A DNA stretch of 59,618 nucleotides. It comes from Clostridia bacterium. GTDB taxonomy: Bacteria; Bacillota; Clostridia; Oscillospirales; CAG-272. Position 1 is the first letter of the stretch. Every line of letters begins with the position of its first letter. The translations under genes and the position numbers were made by a program. The stretch spans positions 1-59,618 of the forward strand of contig JAGBEE010000031.1 of NCBI GenBank assembly GCA_017937135.1. Reading direction: 5' to 3'. Shown here piece after piece: positions 193 to 6,232 of this stretch. The notes under the pieces are model-generated. The model was not told where the DNA came from, did no database searches, and worked only from the letters and a program-made list of their open reading frames with translations.

Positions 193-1017
193 TTATTGCA
201 ACATCCCCTTCTTTTTATAAATAGCGAAATTAACCTCAATACAAGTGTTAATTTCAGACACTCCCTCAAGCTTTTCCTTGTCTTTTAAGCATGTTCTATG
301 ATAATAAGGAGTCATAGTAAATAGGTTTTTAATTGTATCATTACCTGATATTTGTGCTTGATACTTTAAATTTACAATATCAACAAGCTCAAAGCCATCA
401 AGGGGAGAAAATTTTTCCTCGTTCAAGTAAATCTCGTTATATAAAATTCCTTTTAGCCCGTCTAAGTGATTTATTCCTGCCGAGGCAACTATTAAATGAC
501 CACCTTTTTTTAAAATCCTTAAAAACTCATCACCTGCAACAGGTGCAAAAAGATTAGTAACAACGTCACAGTACTCATTTTTCAAAGGCAAGTCAAAGAT
601 GTTCCCAACGCAGTAGCCAATGTTTGTAGTTCCCTCACGCCGAGCAACCTTAGCACCGTGCTCACATCCGTATTTTGACATATCAAATCCCAAAACAAAG
701 GAGGACGTGTGAGCTTTTGCTAAATTTTGAGTATAATAACCTTCGCCGGCACCGGCGTCAACAATGATGTCGTTTTTAATTTTAGATACAATATCACATA
801 GCTTGTCGCTAATTCCCTTATACGCGCAGGATGCAAAAAAATCGCTACGTGCCTTTATCATTTCCTTAGAGTCGCCGGCTTTTTTGTTGTTCATCTTGCC
901 AGGGTTTAATAGATTAACATACCCCGAGGCTGAAATGTCAAAGGAATGTCTTTTTTCACACACAAGCGAGTTATTATTTCTTTTTAACTCATTTTTACAA
1001 ATGGGGCACAAAAACAT
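193..1017 (-). CDS. rlmA: RlmA-like 23S rRNA (guanine-N1)-methyltransferase
   Basis: A 274-residue SAM-dependent methyltransferase of the RlmA/RrmA type, which methylates N1 of a guanine in helix 35 of 23S rRNA. The N-terminus carries the family's zinc finger (C4, C7, C20, H24). A SAM-binding motif I, DAGAGEGYY, follows at about residues 87-95, and NLFAP is the post-I catalytic-loop equivalent. The start chosen is the ATG at 1017. It places MFLCPIC at the N-terminus as in the family and has AGGAG 7 nt upstream; a longer reading to 1083 would run through the promoter. It is divergent from rlmD with overlapping promoters. Which guanine (745 or 748) is modified cannot be read from sequence. Confidence 0.85.
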   Translation of the reverse strand: MFLCPICKNELKRNNNSLVCEKRHSFDISASGYVNLLNPGKMNNKKAGDSKEMIKARSDFFASCAYKGISDKLCDIVSKIKNDIIVDAGAGEGYYTQNLAKAHTSSFVLGFDMSKYGCEHGAKVARREGTTNIGYCVGNIFDLPLKNEYCDVVTNLFAPVAGDEFLRILKKGGHLIVASAGINHLDGLKGILYNEIYLNEEKFSPLDGFELVDIVNLKYQAQISGNDTIKNLFTMTPYYHRTCLKDKEKLEGVSEINTCIEVNFAIYKKKGMLQ

Positions 1018-1038
1018 ATAATATCTCCTAATAGTTGG

Positions 1039-1067
1039 TTGATTTTTGTAACTAAATATATTATAAT
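1039..1067 (+). promoter_or_regulatory. SigA-type promoter for rlmD-like gene
   Basis: TTGATT (1039-1044), a 17-bp spacer and TATAAT (1062-1067) precede the rlmD-like gene by about 40 bp. The -10 element overlaps the divergent -10 of the rlmA-like gene. Confidence 0.6.
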
Positions 1068-1088
1068 ATATTTGTATAAACAAATCAA
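1060..1088 (-). promoter_or_regulatory. SigA-type promoter for rlmA-like gene
   Basis: On the minus strand, TTGATT (-35, 1083-1088) and TATAAT (-10, 1060-1065) are separated by exactly 17 bp. The -10 overlaps that of the divergent rlmD promoter by four bases, within a perfect 20-bp AT palindrome (1054-1073). Confidence 0.6.
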
Positions 1089-1105
1089 GAAGAAAAGGAG
1101 AAATT

Positions 1106-2383
1106 ATGTTAGAGTCAGGACAAGCCTACACAGTGACAATTGAAGAATGCAATATTTTTGCAAATGGTGTATGTCACATTGATAATATGGTTGTTTTTGT
1201 GCCCAATACCTTACAGGGTGAAGAGTGCGAAATTACAATTACTAAGGTAATGCCAACGTATGCCTTTGCAAGGTGCGATAAAATTATTTCTCCGTCAAAT
1301 AAAAGGCAGGTCCCAGCCTGTAAAGTGTATAATGAGTGTGGTGGATGCTCATTTTTACATATGGATATTGAAGAAGAAAACTATATAAAAAATGAGTATG
1401 TAAAAAGTGCGTTTAAAAAACAAAAAATAGAGGCAGATTTTGAAAAAACAGTCTCACCTGTGTGCGAAAAATACAGAAACAAGGTAGTTTTGTTCTTTGA
1501 TGGTAACGACTTTGGGTACATGAAAGAGGGCACAAATCAAATAGTAAAGCATCACACTTGCAACTTGAACCCCGATATATTTGATAAAATAGCAAGTTTT
1601 ACAAAGGAGCACATAAAAAGCAATAACCTAAGGGCGCTATATTTAAGAAAATCCTCACATAGCGTACCCGAAATAATGGTGTGCCCAATTTTCTATAAAA
1701 GCACGGATATTAGCACTTTTGTAAAGGATATTACAAATGAGTTCCCGCAAATAAAGTCAATACTGGTGTCAAGCTACGAAAAAAGTGATTTTACTCTTGA
1801 AAAGCTGACATTTAAAGCAGTATATGGCAACGGATATATAAACGATGAGATATGTGGTGTCAATTTTAGAATATCACCCGAGTCCTTTTATCAAATTAAC
1901 CACCCCTGTGCAACTCTTTTGTATGAAAAGGCGATAGAGCTTGCAGATGCTAAGAAAGGAACCCTTTGCGCTGACCTTTTCTGTGGAACGGGCACAATTG
2001 GAATAATTATTGCTAAAAAAACAGGAGCCGAGGTTAACGGAGTAGAAATAGTAAAAAGTGCAGTAGAGGACGCAAGATTTAACGCAACACAAAATGGTAT
2101 AGCAAATGCTACATTTGAAGCATGCGATGCAAAAGCCTTTAACAAAAAAACAGATGTATGTATAATTGACCCACCTCGCAAGGGCTGTTCACAGCTAATG
2201 CTAAATACCCTTTTGCGCCTAAAGCCTAAACGCATAGTTTACGTTTCCTGCAATACCGACACCCTAACAAGAGACTTAAAAATCCTTTTAAATGACTATA
2301 AAATTTCTTCCCCTGTGTCTGTATTTAATATGTTTCCTAGGACAAAACACGTTGAAAGCGTGGTTTGTCTTACTCGCGAGTAA
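1106..2383 (+). CDS. rlmD: 23S rRNA (uracil-C5)-methyltransferase, RlmD/RumA family
   Basis: A 425-residue TrmA/RlmD-family enzyme that makes 5-methyluridine in 23S rRNA. An N-terminal TRAM domain (about 1-62) is followed by the [4Fe-4S] cysteines (C72, C78, C81, C152). Then come the SAM motif ADLFCGTGTIG (about 289-299), DPPRKG (355-360) and the catalytic SCNTDTL with C382. The C-terminus HVESVVCL is the usual family ending. Start ATG 1106 has a GGAG site. The last codons plus stop lie inside a perfect 28-bp palindrome (2363-2390), and the HVESVVCL codons recur twice downstream, so the gene's 3' end appears to be an element integration site. The final TRE was probably supplied by an inserted element. 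Firmicutes have several paralogues, so the exact position modified is not certain. Confidence 0.88.
   Translation: MLESGQAYTVTIEECNIFANGVCHIDNMVVFVPNTLQGEECEITITKVMPTYAFARCDKIISPSNKRQVPACKVYNECGGCSFLHMDIEEENYIKNEYVKSAFKKQKIEADFEKTVSPVCEKYRNKVVLFFDGNDFGYMKEGTNQIVKHHTCNLNPDIFDKIASFTKEHIKSNNLRALYLRKSSHSVPEIMVCPIFYKSTDISTFVKDITNEFPQIKSILVSSYEKSDFTLEKLTFKAVYGNGYINDEICGVNFRISPESFYQINHPCATLLYEKAIELADAKKGTLCADLFCGTGTIGIIIAKKTGAEVNGVEIVKSAVEDARFNATQNGIANATFEACDAKAFNKKTDVCIIDPPRKGCSQLMLNTLLRLKPKRIVYVSCNTDTLTRDLKILLNDYKISSPVSVFNMFPRTKHVESVVCLTRE
2348..2370 (+). repeat. Putative attachment-site core, copy 1 (inside rlmD 3' end)
   Basis: These 23 bp encode HVESVVCL at the end of the rlmD-like protein. 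Near-identical copies occur at 3146-3168 (1 mismatch) and 4149-4171 (2 mismatches). The 3' ends of rum-type methyltransferase genes are known integration sites for streptococcal ICEs and phages, so this is read as the gene-side attachment core (attL). Confidence 0.7.
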
Positions 2384-2390
2384 GACAAAC
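2363..2390. repeat. Perfect 28-bp palindrome over the rlmD stop codon
   Basis: GTTTGTCTTACTCG is followed directly by its exact reverse complement. It spans the last codons and stop of rlmD. There is no T-tract afterwards, so it is not a classical terminator. It lies at the junction between the gene and the inserted block and may be an element end or an integrase/excisionase site. Confidence 0.6.
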
Positions 2391-2430
2391 GCAAAAATCC
2401 GACGGCAAGATAGGCGTCGTGCTTGCACGT

Positions 2431-2538
2431 AAGGATATATTGACTTCGTGATTTTAGAGGGATCGCCATAAGGCGAGAACGAAACACGCTTTCATCGTAT
2501 CGTGTCACGCTCTCGGCGCGAGAGCAACATATATCCTT
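2431..2538. repeat. 108-bp structured element with 10-bp terminal inverted repeats
   Basis: AAGGATATAT at the left end is matched by ATATATCCTT at the right. In between are nested perfect hairpins: TCGCC-ATAA-GGCGA (2463-2476), ACACG..CGTGT (2484-2505) and GCTCTCG-GCG-CGAGAGC (2509-2525). A further CGTGC-TT-GCACG lies just to the left. It is clearly more GC-rich than neighbouring spacers. It could be a small MITE-like or palindromic repeat, or a structured RNA; no coding potential is convincing. Confidence 0.5.
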
Positions 2539-2705
2539 CTTTGGAATATATGTTTCCTTTAATTTATAGAGTTAAAAATACAATAAATAAGTGTTCAAAA
2601 TCAAAAAATGCCCCAATTTAGCATTGGGACAAATGTGAGTTTTGAGCAAAACTCGAAAGTGCATTTTACAGTAGTACGGTATAACAATCGAAAGGAATTG
2701 ACGAT

Positions 2706-3026
2706 ATGGAACAAGATTTGAGACTGAATGGTCAAGAGGAATATTTAAAAAATGTAGTCCTCTATAGAATTGTTTTCCCTGATTTTTGGGCGAAAGCATT
2801 TGCTGATAAAAACGAATTTTATCAAAGCATTTTAAGATATGCCGAAAATCATGTTAAGGCTTTCCCTAATACAAAGGAATATCTTGAAGGTGAAAAAATA
2901 CAGTTATTTTGGCACGAACACTGCGATTTCTGTTGGGAAAAAGCAATGACAAGTATGGTCTGTGAGTTTTATTGTACAAAAGATATGCGTTATTGGATTT
3001 GCAAAGAATGCTTTGAAGAATTTTAA
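2706..3026 (+). CDS. Hypothetical cysteine-rich protein, element cargo
   Basis: I do not recognise this 106-residue protein. It has an AAGGAA site 9 nt before ATG 2706 and an ordinary codon pattern. The N-terminal two thirds are charged and helical-looking. The C-terminal 45 residues hold HCDFC, then VCEFYC, then ICKEC, a Cys/His spacing suggesting a small zinc ribbon or treble-clef fold. Two small hairpins (near 2609 and 2638) lie upstream. It sits alone between attachment-core copies 1 and 2, so it is probably element cargo. No function can be assigned. Confidence 0.6.
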   Translation: MEQDLRLNGQEEYLKNVVLYRIVFPDFWAKAFADKNEFYQSILRYAENHVKAFPNTKEYLEGEKIQLFWHEHCDFCWEKAMTSMVCEFYCTKDMRYWICKECFEEF

Positions 3027-3098
3027 AGATAAATTTGGGTGGATTGTAAAATTCGCTGATGAGCTGTTTGATTGACTATAAATATACCTTTTGTCGTT

Positions 3099-3168
3099 AC
3101 ACCCCCTGTTTTTGACACAAAAATATACCTTTTGACCTCTTGCCCCACGTCGAAAGCGTGGTTTGTCT
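3099..3168 (+). repeat. 70-bp direct repeat, copy 1 (element right end plus att core)
   Basis: It matches 4102-4171 at a constant offset of 1003 bp with two mismatches. The last 23 bp are the rlmD-derived core, followed here by codons for T-K-L and a stop, so this copy still reads HVESVVCLTKL-stop like an authentic rlmD tail. Within and before it, the word AATATACCTTTTG occurs twice 40 bp apart (near 3081 and 3121), resembling integrase arm-site repeats. Confidence 0.75.
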
Positions 3169-3200
3169 GACAAAATTATAAATCCACAAAGGAGAACGAT

Positions 3201-3686
3201 ATGAAAATAATATCTGCTGAGCGTTGTGCACTTTTGAAAAAATACGGCTTTGATGATAGCTCCAACAGGGATCTTTCCTTTGGATTTCCTACTCCTGCCT
3301 ATGTCATGGATACTAAAATGCTGGTACAAGGAGACCACACTACCGATCACGCCTACATATATTACGCCTGTGTGGACACGTACGAAGGAGAGCGGCTTGA
3401 CGGATTCTTTTATTCTCCTTCTTTACTTGAATATTTGCTTATTGATTTCGGTGGCGAGTGGGATTTTAACCGTATGCTAAAAGCCATTCAAAGGCAATTG
3501 GATTGCGAAGTGCGTCTTGTTTCGGTGAACGGTTACCCAAATCTGTTTATCGAGCTCGATGAGCAAGATGGGAAAACAGCTGATATTCGCTTTCAAATAA
3601 GTGATATGCTCAAGTTGATTGGTCAATTGGATTATCTTTTGTCGCGTAAGCTGGAAAGCCTGCGAGCAAAAAGGAGAAGGGCTTGA
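3201..3686 (+). CDS. Hypothetical protein, element cargo
   Basis: I do not recognise this 161-residue protein. The start ATG 3201 has AGGAG 8 nt upstream. It looks soluble, with mixed alpha/beta composition, an acidic middle and a strongly basic C-terminus (ESLRAKRRRA). Codon choice is less AT-biased than in neighbouring housekeeping genes (CGT, GAC, CTC-type codons are more frequent), which fits acquisition with the element. It lies directly after attachment-core copy 2, and a tiny hydrophobic ORF follows three bases after its stop codon ends. Confidence 0.6.
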   Translation: MKIISAERCALLKKYGFDDSSNRDLSFGFPTPAYVMDTKMLVQGDHTTDHAYIYYACVDTYEGERLDGFFYSPSLLEYLLIDFGGEWDFNRMLKAIQRQLDCEVRLVSVNGYPNLFIELDEQDGKTADIRFQISDMLKLIGQLDYLLSRKLESLRAKRRRA

Positions 3687-3688
3687 TT

Positions 3689-3793
3689 TTGAAAGACATT
3701 GTCATCGTGATAGATTCGGTTATTGGAATTGTGCTTTTCTCGTTTTATAACTTGCTTGTGTATGGAACAGCAGTATTTGCTTGTTTTTACTGA
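3689..3793 (+). CDS. Possible 34-residue hydrophobic peptide
   Basis: A TTG-initiated small ORF begins almost immediately after the stop of the 161-residue gene, with AAGGAG 12 nt upstream. The product would be one hydrophobic segment (IVIVIDSVIGIVLFSFYNLL) after a short charged start, ending in Cys-Phe-Tyr. It would be a single-pass membrane peptide. The spacing is long and the start is TTG, so this is tentative. If real, it is probably translationally coupled to the upstream gene. Confidence 0.3.
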   Translation: MKDIVIVIDSVIGIVLFSFYNLLVYGTAVFACFY

Positions 3794-4101
3794 TAAAATT
3801 AAGTATAAAAATGGGCTTTTAAAAAAAGCAGTTGGTCATTCTTTCAAGTCAATACAAAATTAAATTGAGAAGGCTAACTACCCGAAGTGGCTATACAGTT
3901 TGGATGTTGATGCACCACTATAAAGACAAAAGGGTGTTGACATATAAACTGTGTCAATCACTCGCAGGAAAAAGGAAATATGATTTGTGCCAAATAGGTT
4001 GTGAGATCATTGACCGTCAAAAAGTGATCAAGTAACTATAAAGCAATAAAATCGGCAGAGCGGTTTCAACTAAAGGCAAAAAAGTGATACTTTTTGGCTT
4101 C
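3794..4101. other. Poorly coding spacer in element remnant 2
   Basis: A 67-codon open frame from a TTG at 3832 to 4035 lacks a convincing ribosome site. Its product (basic, containing VLTYKLCQSLAGKRKYDLC) is not recognised and may be a decayed fragment. Just right of it, GATACTTTTTGGCTTCACACC resembles the arm repeat seen near 3081. No other feature is visible. Confidence 0.3.
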
Positions 4102-4171
4102 ACACCCCCCGTTTTTGACACAAAAATATACCTTTTGACCTCTTGCCCCACGTCGAAAGCGTGGTTTGCCT
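4102..4171 (+). repeat. 70-bp direct repeat, copy 2 (element right end plus att core)
   Basis: This is the second copy of the repeat at 3099-3168. The final 23 bp (4149-4171) encode HVESVVCL in one frame, but here the frame runs on without an immediate stop. It is followed by a small hairpin, GCTTGG-ACAG-CCAAGC. It marks the probable right boundary (attR) of the array, 36 bp before the next gene. Confidence 0.75.
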
Positions 4172-4222
4172 GGCTTGGACAGCCAAGCAACGTGATATAA
4201 CATATCGATGGAGAAAAACAAA

Positions 4223-5431
4223 ATGAGCGAAATGGATAAATTTGAAATTTCAGACAGCAATGTTTTAAAAAGATACAAGGGTAATGACTCAATTGTTGTT
4301 GTACCAAATCGTGTAAAAGAAATTGAAAGATGTGTTTTTTATAATTGTGATTTGCTTGAAGAAATTTCAATTCCAGACGGCATCGAAATAATAGATGAAA
4401 CTAATTTTATAGAATGTAAAAATCTTAAATTTAATGAAGCTGACGGAGTAAGATATTTAGGAAATAAAAACAATCCATACCTTGTGCTTGTTTCAGCAGA
4501 GAAAAATATAAAAGAGCATGATATAAAAGAAGGCTGTAAGCTTATAAAGGGAAACGCATTTGATCTGTGTAGTGAGTTAGTACGCATATCAATACCGTCA
4601 ACTGTAAGGCAAATAGGCTACATGGCGTTTTACAACTGTTACTCACTAAGTGAAGTAAAAATTTCAGAAGGTGTTGAAAAAATATATAGCTGTGCTTTCG
4701 AAAATTGTAGCATTGAAAATCTTCAACTCCCAAATAGCTTAAAATACATTGGTGAAAACGCATTTAGTATGGTGAGCCTAAAAGAGGTTAGTATTTCAAA
4801 TGAAATTCTTTATATTGGCTGTGGTGCCTTTGCTTATAATGACATTAGGTACAATGAATACAAGGAAGGTTGCTATTTTGGAAGTGATAAAAATCCATAT
4901 CTTTGCTTTGTAAAGCCAAAGGATAAAAATACTTCAAATATAGACATTCATAGTAACTGTAAAATAATATACTCTAACGCATTTTCTAAATGCAAAAATC
5001 TAAAAAATATAAAATTACCAGATGGCTTAGTACAAATTGGTAAAAATGCTTTTCAAGAATGCTATGAGCTTGAAGCTATCAACATACCAAGTAACGTAAC
5101 GCTAATTGATGAATGTGCCTTTGCAAGCTGTAAAAGGCTAAAATCTATTAAAATTCCTAATCAAAGAATAACAATTGAGTCTGGAGCCTTTATGGAATGC
5201 TCCTCAATTGAGACCTTAGAGCTTATAAATGCCATTGTTAGTGATAATGTATTCGACGGGTGCAATGGATTAAAACGCTTAGTAGTAGGTGAAGCGTCAA
5301 ATTTATATGGCTACTATATATTTTCAGGCTGCAACTCTCTTAAGGAAGCAATATTGCCAAAAAAATTAGAAAATAGCACCATAATAGATGAATTAAATGA
5401 AATCGGAAATGTTAAGATTACATACGTGTAA
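4223..5431 (+). CDS. BspA-type leucine-rich repeat (LRR_5) protein
   Basis: A protein of about 402 residues made mostly of BspA-like leucine-rich repeats (LRR_5 family). Units of ~23 residues recur in the style 'I..xAF..C..L..I.IP..V..I', for example IPSTVRQIGYMAFYNCYSL and LPDGLVQIGKNAFQECYEL. There is no signal peptide, anchor or transmembrane segment, so this copy appears cytoplasmic, unlike most surface BspA proteins. ATG 4223 is preferred because GGAG stands 9 nt upstream; ATG 4208 in the same frame has no site. It lies immediately right of the attachment-site array, so it could belong to a further inserted block. The ligand is unknown. Confidence 0.8.
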   Translation: MSEMDKFEISDSNVLKRYKGNDSIVVVPNRVKEIERCVFYNCDLLEEISIPDGIEIIDETNFIECKNLKFNEADGVRYLGNKNNPYLVLVSAEKNIKEHDIKEGCKLIKGNAFDLCSELVRISIPSTVRQIGYMAFYNCYSLSEVKISEGVEKIYSCAFENCSIENLQLPNSLKYIGENAFSMVSLKEVSISNEILYIGCGAFAYNDIRYNEYKEGCYFGSDKNPYLCFVKPKDKNTSNIDIHSNCKIIYSNAFSKCKNLKNIKLPDGLVQIGKNAFQECYELEAINIPSNVTLIDECAFASCKRLKSIKIPNQRITIESGAFMECSSIETLELINAIVSDNVFDGCNGLKRLVVGEASNLYGYYIFSGCNSLKEAILPKKLENSTIIDELNEIGNVKITYV

Positions 5432-5446
5432 GAAGGGAATAAGCAT

Positions 5447-6232
5447 ATGAAAGCAAAAGAGCTCATTGAGAAATTGATATACGGAGCATACAAGCGCGAG
5501 CCAACCTGCGATACAATAAAAGCAGGAGACCCCGAAAAAGAGCTTAAACGCGTTATGGTAACAATGTTTGCAACCGTTGACGTTGTTCGCCAGGCTAAGG
5601 AGTGGGGAGCAGATATGCTTATAGTACACGAGCCTACATATTACGACCATTGGGACATAGTAGAAGAAAATAAGGTTACCATAGCAAAAAAGAAATTGAT
5701 TGATGAAAGTGGAATAGTAGTTTTTCGCTATCACGACCATATGCATTCAAGAGACATTGACCAAATAACCCAGGGTGAACTACATTATTTGAGGCTTGAT
5801 GGCACAGTAAGTAAAACACCATATGATGCATCATATATGTTTACAGCAAATGAGCCAATTACAGCTCTTGAGCTTGCAAATCGCATGGAAAACAAGCTTG
5901 GCATAAAGCATGTAAGAATAGCAGGAGAAAGAAACAAAAAATCAACTAAAATTGCGGCATGCTTCGGTACTCCCGCAGGTGTTTACGAGTTATTAACAAG
6001 TGATGATGTAGAAATAGTTTTAACAGGCGAGGCTTGCGAGTGGAAGCTTTGTGAATACGCGCGAGATGCATCACTGCTTGGTATAAATAAATCAATTATA
6101 GTTATGGGACATATCCCATCTGAAAGAGATGGAATGCGCTTGCTTGCCGAGCGAATGAAAAAGGAATATAAGTCATTTGAAACACGCTATATCGAATGTG
6201 GGGAGGCTTATACCTATACTGATGAAGAATAA
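5447..6232 (+). CDS. Nif3-like (DUF34) dinuclear metal-center protein
   Basis: A 261-residue protein of the Nif3/YqfO family, which form hexameric rings with a two-metal site. Visible family features are LIVHEPTYY (about 62-70, equivalent to the metal-binding HHP segment), FRYHDHMHS (about 94-102) and VLTGEACEW then GHIPSER near the C-terminus, where metal ligands cluster. The HEPTYY variant recalls the clade annotated as DUF34 enzymes acting on nucleotide-like compounds. The start ATG 5447 has AAGGGA. It begins a run of closely spaced genes to 10112. The true substrate is not established for most members. Confidence 0.75.
   Translation: MKAKELIEKLIYGAYKREPTCDTIKAGDPEKELKRVMVTMFATVDVVRQAKEWGADMLIVHEPTYYDHWDIVEENKVTIAKKKLIDESGIVVFRYHDHMHSRDIDQITQGELHYLRLDGTVSKTPYDASYMFTANEPITALELANRMENKLGIKHVRIAGERNKKSTKIAACFGTPAGVYELLTSDDVEIVLTGEACEWKLCEYARDASLLGINKSIIVMGHIPSERDGMRLLAERMKKEYKSFETRYIECGEAYTYTDEE

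Follow-up and report, generated by a model that had tools for sequence, protein, structure and literature searches.

Tandem recombinase-less gene cassettes at the 3' end of an rlmD-like gene in Clostridia

The capture of single genes and their shuffling within cassette arrays are familiar from IntI/attC integrons. Larger, multi-gene elements occur at rlmH in the form of the staphylococcal cassette chromosome (SCC), whose autonomous forms carry ccr genes in cis, and cis-mobilizable elements (CIMEs) are stretches of DNA between attachment (att) sites that hold no recombination genes and derive from one integrative and conjugative element (ICE) by deletion. For the streptococcal ICEs that target rumA, the excerpted text of PMC4701971 describes a serine integrase gene and rumA exchanging their 3' ends, with the att site inside the integrase gene, and reports CTn5 in rumA of a C. 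difficile 630 derivative (PMC4701971). Here, we describe a locus on contig JAGBEE010000031.1 (assembly GCA_017937135.1) of a Clostridia bacterium (Oscillospirales; CAG-272), in which an rlmD-like gene is followed by two small gene cassettes with repeated ends; the whole stretch of 59,618 nucleotides is referred to as the window. The repeats of the window are the local end of an rlmD-anchored, shuffled cassette array found across the family, and the window is probably, if by no means securely, the front of a non-autonomous tandem array of cassettes that uses the att site of a serine integrase at the rlmD 3' end. Searches of open-licence PMC papers turned up no account of arrays of this kind.

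A first-pass annotation of the window had proposed that three 23-bp cores derived from the end of rlmD flank two integrase-less blocks of cargo. All three cores were recovered on the + strand (Table 1), no match at up to three mismatches being obtained in any of 100 shuffled windows, and their origin in rlmD is supported; the RlmD-like open reading frame (ORF) ends in core 1. Copy 1 translates to HVESVVCLTRE-stop, and the reading of copy 2 as HVESVVCLTKL-stop stands. The shared end of copies 2 and 3 is also real (3099-3168; 70 bp, two differences, offset of 1003), but it had been drawn too short: the likeness extends over 86 bp (3084-3169 and 4087-4172; 93% identity at the same offset). This right end, ~86 bp long including the core, comprises two direct repeats of ~24 bp, the starts of which lie 41 bp apart in the window, and repeat 2 abuts the 23-bp copy of the rlmD 3' end; the consensus is ATATACCTTTTG-NNN-TTACAACCCC for repeat 1 and ATATACCTTTTG-NNN-TCTTGACC for repeat 2. 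The blocks are in tandem and integrase-less as claimed, no PF00589 or PF00239 match being present on the window contig (C2); they are not, however, two related small elements, but belong to a large pool of cassettes whose members are unrelated apart from their common ends. Cassette 1 matches genome G022 at 91.5% identity over 532 bp, the match stopping 3 bp beyond core 2. The cassette 1 gene of G022 encodes 122 aa and stops just before the right end; compared with two relatives, that of the window (2706-3075) has gained one base of length close to its 3' end, so that its ORF stops early, which may reflect a sequencing error or a pseudogene. Block 2 is a composite, its rear part resembling the 3' part of a different cassette.

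A sequence model of the right end, R1, was built from 20 aligned copies in 13 genomes, and in the window genome (G000) it has two matches, both at copies 2 and 3. The 86 bp of the window alone matched 14 of 57 genomes by BLAST. At E<=0.01, R1 matched 18/29 genomes of the genus (13 of them at E<1e-15) and 46/196 genomes in 25/71 genera of the family; at E<=1e-4, it matched 19/394 genomes of the order, seven of which belong to four other families. Contributor genomes match by construction, since R1 was built from their copies, and they account for 11 of the 13 strong matches in the genus and four of the 46 in the family. Eleven of these 46 lie outside the fetched set and are mostly weak matches, except for G207, G141, and G224. 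A pattern scan of a species-genome collection returned 106 stretches, all with titles naming Clostridia, Clostridiales, or Oscillospiraceae metagenome-assembled genomes (MAGs); those with RGIG titles, which name the sample, all come from the cecum, colon, or rectum of ruminants. The scan was strict and must miss many sites, as its pattern fitted only 29/73 known ones, and the collection is possibly biased. In viral contigs, 32 pattern matches were taken as chance, none having a right-end profile match of 20 bits, and neither the phage and plasmid collections searched with window 2371-4207 nor an Rfam search of window 1000-6000 (E up to 1) gave a match.

The array is anchored at rlmD. Among 56 fetched whole-genome stretches with at least one site (some genomes supplying two stretches), an rlmD-family gene lies upstream on the same strand in 35, at a median of 1133 bp and at most 3001 bp from the first site, and the other 21 open at a contig edge, which by its coordinates precedes the first site by 88 to 3335 bp; one of the latter, G405, has an rlmD-family gene downstream. 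Assemblies often break within the array, which would be expected were its content variable in the population. No array away from rlmD, other than behind a contig edge, was found in these stretches, which speaks against the repeat being a dispersed one unrelated to rlmD. After loci had been oriented, all 225 matches of at least 35 bits (duplicate contigs included) fell on the + strand and none on the - strand, and no locus held sites in both orientations. Each stretch holds 1 to 6 sites, with a median site-to-site distance of 763 bp (34 intervals), and relatives range from no recognised site to six, in keeping with the expectation that block number would differ among them. In G014, G019, and G001, rlmD tails occur with no R1 match in the genome; these may be empty sites, or the right end may have been lost. 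Arrays also follow a second rlmD paralogue (e.g., in G011, G024, G067, and G476). Two rlmD-family genes lie close together in G001, G010, G011, G023, G024, G145, and G476, among others, and right-end matches, some of them partial, occur behind both genes in G023 and G145.

A typical unit holds one small forward gene, and some units hold two. Across 221 cassettes (duplicate contigs kept), the last forward ORF of at least 70 aa ends a median of 4 bp before the right end, with its stop within -5 to 20 bp of that end in 166. Deduplication left 273 forward and 41 reverse cassette ORFs in 152 clusters, and the tandem layout of single-ORF units in one orientation is one by which integrons are also recognised. 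Core copies remain readable: among the 119 of 140 sites that could be scored (first nine bases fitting a pattern), the reading HVE[STNC][VILMF][VI][CGS] is kept in 95. In that frame, no scored core has an internal stop and 96% reach a stop within 25 codons, versus 15% and 28% with internal stops and 80% and 73% with a stop within 25 codons in the two other frames; codon variability is highest at the third position (entropy of 1.15 versus 0.42 and 0.30, the first nine bases being selection-biased). Such readability fits units that each bring, or lately took, a working rlmD tail, and it would also follow from repeated capture off different rlmD genes with no later selection.

Cassettes have moved between distant hosts. 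Between genera, cassette copies are 96-98% identical, and in the eight pairs compared the rlmD proteins are 31-56% identical. For example, G006 and G030, of different genera, share a cassette at 96% over 1048 bp with rlmD proteins 31% identical (the rlmD of G006 lying on another contig), G010 and G354, of different families, share one at 96% over 300 bp with rlmD at 36%, and L332 and G087, of different species, have the same cassette at up to 99% over 300 bp. That the region is not fixed among relatives is apparent from G011 and G024, whose collinear flanks are 90-93% identical and whose cassette genes differ behind both rlmD genes; at the second rlmD, homology breaks off at the core on the left side and, on the right, picks up again where a repeat 1 begins. 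The right-hand exchange point was located with 26 same-cassette pairs at different loci, drawn from 140 sites with each site used once (mean gene identity of 96%; L332 and G087 provide two pairs). Identity stays at ~0.96 through the end of ATATACCTTTTG of repeat 1, and drops to 0.73, 0.69, and 0.50 in the next columns. From column 29 on, it equals the background level for unrelated pairs, save for a small surplus in the spacer of the kind expected from pairs that break at repeat 2. Repeat 1 as far as TTTTGNNNTT takes 12.9 of 26 of the right-break posterior, and repeat 2 takes 5.2. That the right boundary in most cases coincides with a single short motif of the repeats (TTTTG) suggests a site-specific process, and this sharpness is the strongest evidence for one that the compared sequences offer.

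Home-made recombinase profiles were run against 162 array loci (1.5 Mb, duplicates included), and serine integrases were found beside the array at three of them (L370, L334, and G077), where the integrase gene precedes the array (a fragment at the contig edge in G077). The first-pass annotation had proposed looking for full-length elements with the same right end and a tyrosine or serine integrase, and here the integrase 3' ends are fused to the rlmD core: LDNDTQ-VESLVCLTRK in L370, LDNDTQ-VETIVCLCKQ in L334, and LDNDTQ-VESVICLTWSDKV in G077, whose C-terminus reads TQVESVICL. The fused core leads into the left-end sequence of a cassette; one or two genes come next, and then a right end (partial in G077). 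The two long copies contain the Pfam domains Resolvase, Recombinase, and zinc ribbon. Relatives with 75-96% identity over the matched part were identified in G191 (two copies), G197, G103, G091, and G077, and more distant ones in G088 and G093; the integrases of G191, G103, G091, and G088 terminate in RlmD-like tails, that of G197 diverges after VE, and that of G093 is not comparable. An exchange of 3' ends at rlmD is displayed by the integrase genes of L370, L334, and G077, at one end only; the cassettes of the window display core copies only. Repeat 2 and the pre-core DNA of the integrase genes can both hold TTTGGAC, by eye, 15-20 bp before the junction. Viewed alongside the streptococcal rumA ICEs, as far as the excerpted text of PMC4701971 describes them, these fusions indicate that the clade holds an enzyme apparently cutting within these rlmD codons, and that this enzyme meets the arrays.

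In the reading that we favor, a unit would combine a core copy capable of forming the rlmD C-terminus with a right end, and between them would lie an optional leader and, in most cases, a single forward gene. Units would circularise and then re-enter at rlmD, which would stay intact while the site stays open because each unit carries its own copy of the rlmD tail. With less weight, the driver would be a present or past large serine integrase of elements targeting the same rlmD codons, possibly working in trans wherever such an element occurs; the cassettes would then be satellites mobilised in this manner. A broader interpretation, to which we give somewhat less than even credence, is that the arrays represent integrons of a second kind, independent of the first: a platform for gene capture in the chromosome of gut Clostridia, in which the 3' end of a housekeeping gene is the attachment site, cassette-borne replacement gene ends regenerate that site, and the serine integrase of visiting elements moves cassettes between genera.

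Several observations weigh against the favored reading. The integrase family occurs in 7/196 genomes of the taxonomic family, only one of which (G077) also has an array site, a partial one, and five of 15 array-bearing genomes (G003, G010, G030, G087, and G238; drafts, 86-97% complete) have no PF00239 match. The exchange points lie to the left of the integrase/rlmD junction, ~60 bp away in repeat 1 and ~15-20 bp away in repeat 2, and 7.9/26 of the right-break posterior falls outside both repeat motifs. The left boundaries of shared cassettes are diffuse: in 23 pairs picked for homology starting <=25 bp after the core, the posterior is distributed among the core or just right of it (11.3), the end of repeat 2 (2.9), positions at or left of the TTTTG of repeat 1 (4.5), and the interval between (4.3), and in other shared-cassette pairs the left break lies in the leader. 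Lastly, misbinned contigs are conceivable, since all named records are MAGs. A left exchange point at the integrase junction was considered and rejected, since this diffuse posterior singles out no point. The sharp right exchange point is not at the junction; a different recombinase may act on the repeats, or the arrays may be remodelled mostly by another route.

Such a route might involve no dedicated enzyme, cassettes being shuffled after rare founding insertions by homologous or short-homology recombination among copies of the right end, core, and leader. This is unlikely, albeit the best-placed of the alternatives: repeats, core, and leader are common to the units, left boundaries are scattered across all three, and right breaks fall in blocks that are also among the most conserved, whereas many unrelated cassettes have their right boundary at the same motif and the repeats keep their sequence from one genus or family to the next, both of which count against it. 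Somewhat less probable still is a tyrosine recombinase acting in trans on the repeats, possibly a widespread Xer-like protein. PF00589 has matches in 23/23 genomes (15 array-bearing and eight array-free), and an Xer-like protein (328-365 aa, HKLRH motif) was extracted from 22 of them (all but G002). In G153 (98% complete, four-site array), no other PF00589 match reaches E<=0.001. The four tested copies are nearest to XerC/XerD in NCBIfam (below cut-offs), and the partial linkage across ~3 columns of the exchange point is what an overlap region would be expected to give. Against this, the Xer-like protein is present in array-free genomes too, and the 162 array loci contain no tyrosine recombinase detectable by a home-made profile (itself without a positive control). 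Taken whole, neither PF00589 nor PF00239 tracks the arrays in the 23 genomes. An integron, or a cluster of attC sites lacking integron integrases (CALIN), with diverged attC sites is highly improbable despite its tandem, mostly one-ORF cassettes with a 3' recombination site by the stop codon and mostly unknown cargo, given that RNAalifold predicted no pairs and no consensus fold for the 20 aligned right ends with core, that the core is an rlmD fragment, and that integron integrase TIGR02249 is over its cut-off in 0/18 array genomes (weaker matches occurring in 18/18 of these and in 14/14 controls).

The cargo is diverse. Among 100 proteins searched against Pfam (98 of 99 cassette representatives, the one omitted being a second rlmD copy, plus the two window ORFs), 72 families were matched, none in more than two proteins; the 25 of these 72 that were listed include HNH, an HpaII restriction enzyme, a C5 methylase, ResIII, NERD, GIY-YIG, 23S_rRNA_IVP, and one match to the recombinase zinc ribbon, which is taken to be the integrase fragment of G077. 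PADLOC matched 80 families in 100 cassette proteins, and the 25 of these 80 that were listed, each matched by a single protein, are one model of a type II restriction enzyme and otherwise DNA methylase models. The commonest cassette gene cluster has 32 members, one of which matches 23S_rRNA_IVP, and often lies close behind the core (L062:3820-4440 and many other loci); in the copies inspected, the gene is preceded by an inverted core copy and also by 7- or 8-base units (TGAAGTT, TCGATATG, or TGAATTG) alternating with small hairpins. Small GIY-YIG-like cassette genes occur at L152:91-471 and, reverse-complemented, at L147:363-707, and HPER-like peptides translate from nearby stretches.

The features of the window are collected in Table 1. 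The nearest solved structures to the anchor protein are S. pneumoniae SP_1029 and E. coli RumA. Upstream, in the divergent region between a 296-aa methyltransferase-like ORF and rlmD, two 25-bp arms at 1039-1088 are 80% complementary without gaps. Straight after core 3, and preceded by a leader-like remnant (ATAACATATCGATGGAG), a BspA-type leucine-rich repeat gene (4208-5431) lacks a right-end match downstream and is possibly the final cassette, its end having been lost.

Table 1. Positions of the rlmD-like anchor gene, cores, and cassette parts in the window.
Feature	Position	Strand	Basis or remark
rlmD-like 23S rRNA uracil-5-methyltransferase gene (RlmCD/RumA family), anchor	1106..2383	+	Pfam tRNA_U5-meth_tr and TRAM
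Core 1, within the rlmD 3' end (HVESVVCL)	2348..2370	+	Sequence
Perfect 28-bp palindrome beginning in core 1; one of several post-core left-end types	2363..2390	.	Sequence
Leader common to several unrelated cassette genes	2635..2705	+	Comparison with other cassettes
Cassette 1 gene, 106-aa ORF	2706..3026	+	No Pfam match at E up to 1
Cassette 1 right end: repeat 1, spacer, repeat 2	3083..3145	+	
TTTTGNNNTT in repeat 1 of cassette 1	3089-3098		Commonest break site of shared cassettes
TTTTG in repeat 2 of cassette 1 right end	3130-3134		
Core 2, still HVESVVCLTKL-stop	3146..3168	+	
Cassette 2 gene, 161 aa	3201..3686	+	No Pfam match at E up to 1
3' remnant of a further cassette, joined to the rear of the 161-aa gene	3680..4119	+	86% identity to G182
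Cassette 2 right end: repeat 1, spacer, repeat 2	4086..4148	+	
Core 3	4149..4171	+	

The same layout on a different site, and probably with a different enzyme class, would demonstrate more than one origin of the cassette strategy. It would also open up a pool of unstudied small genes moving between genera (including nucleases, an HpaII-like restriction system, and small proteins outside known families) in little-studied gut Clostridia, and with the array a defined DNA site becomes available for assays of candidate recombinases.

Set against known systems, the array is rated as one of attachment-site elements at an rRNA methylase gene, integron-like in its working yet not passing the tests for an integron. 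It shares with SCC the tandem placement of elements where a 23S rRNA methylase gene ends (3'), as well as serine recombinases and recombinase-less relatives, and differs from it in the gene targeted and in that SCC elements are larger and multi-gene, with ccr in cis when autonomous. Like CIMEs, the blocks of the window have flanking att-like repeats and no recombination genes; unlike CIMEs, which derive from one ICE by deletion, the cassettes form a large, shuffled gene pool. The streptococcal rumA ICEs, as presented in the excerpted text of PMC4701971, share the target gene family and the gene-end exchange but carry their own integrase, whereas the units of the window are mostly single genes in tandem, with no recombinase and with a readable rlmD tail. 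From integrons, as portrayed in the excerpts of PMC8618304, the array is distinguished by the lack of an IntI over cut-off and of any foldable attC found, and by an anchor that is a housekeeping gene's own 3' end; with integron cassettes and CALINs (PMC8618304, same excerpts), it has in common one ORF followed by a 3' site, tandem arrangement, sharing across species, and mostly unknown functions.

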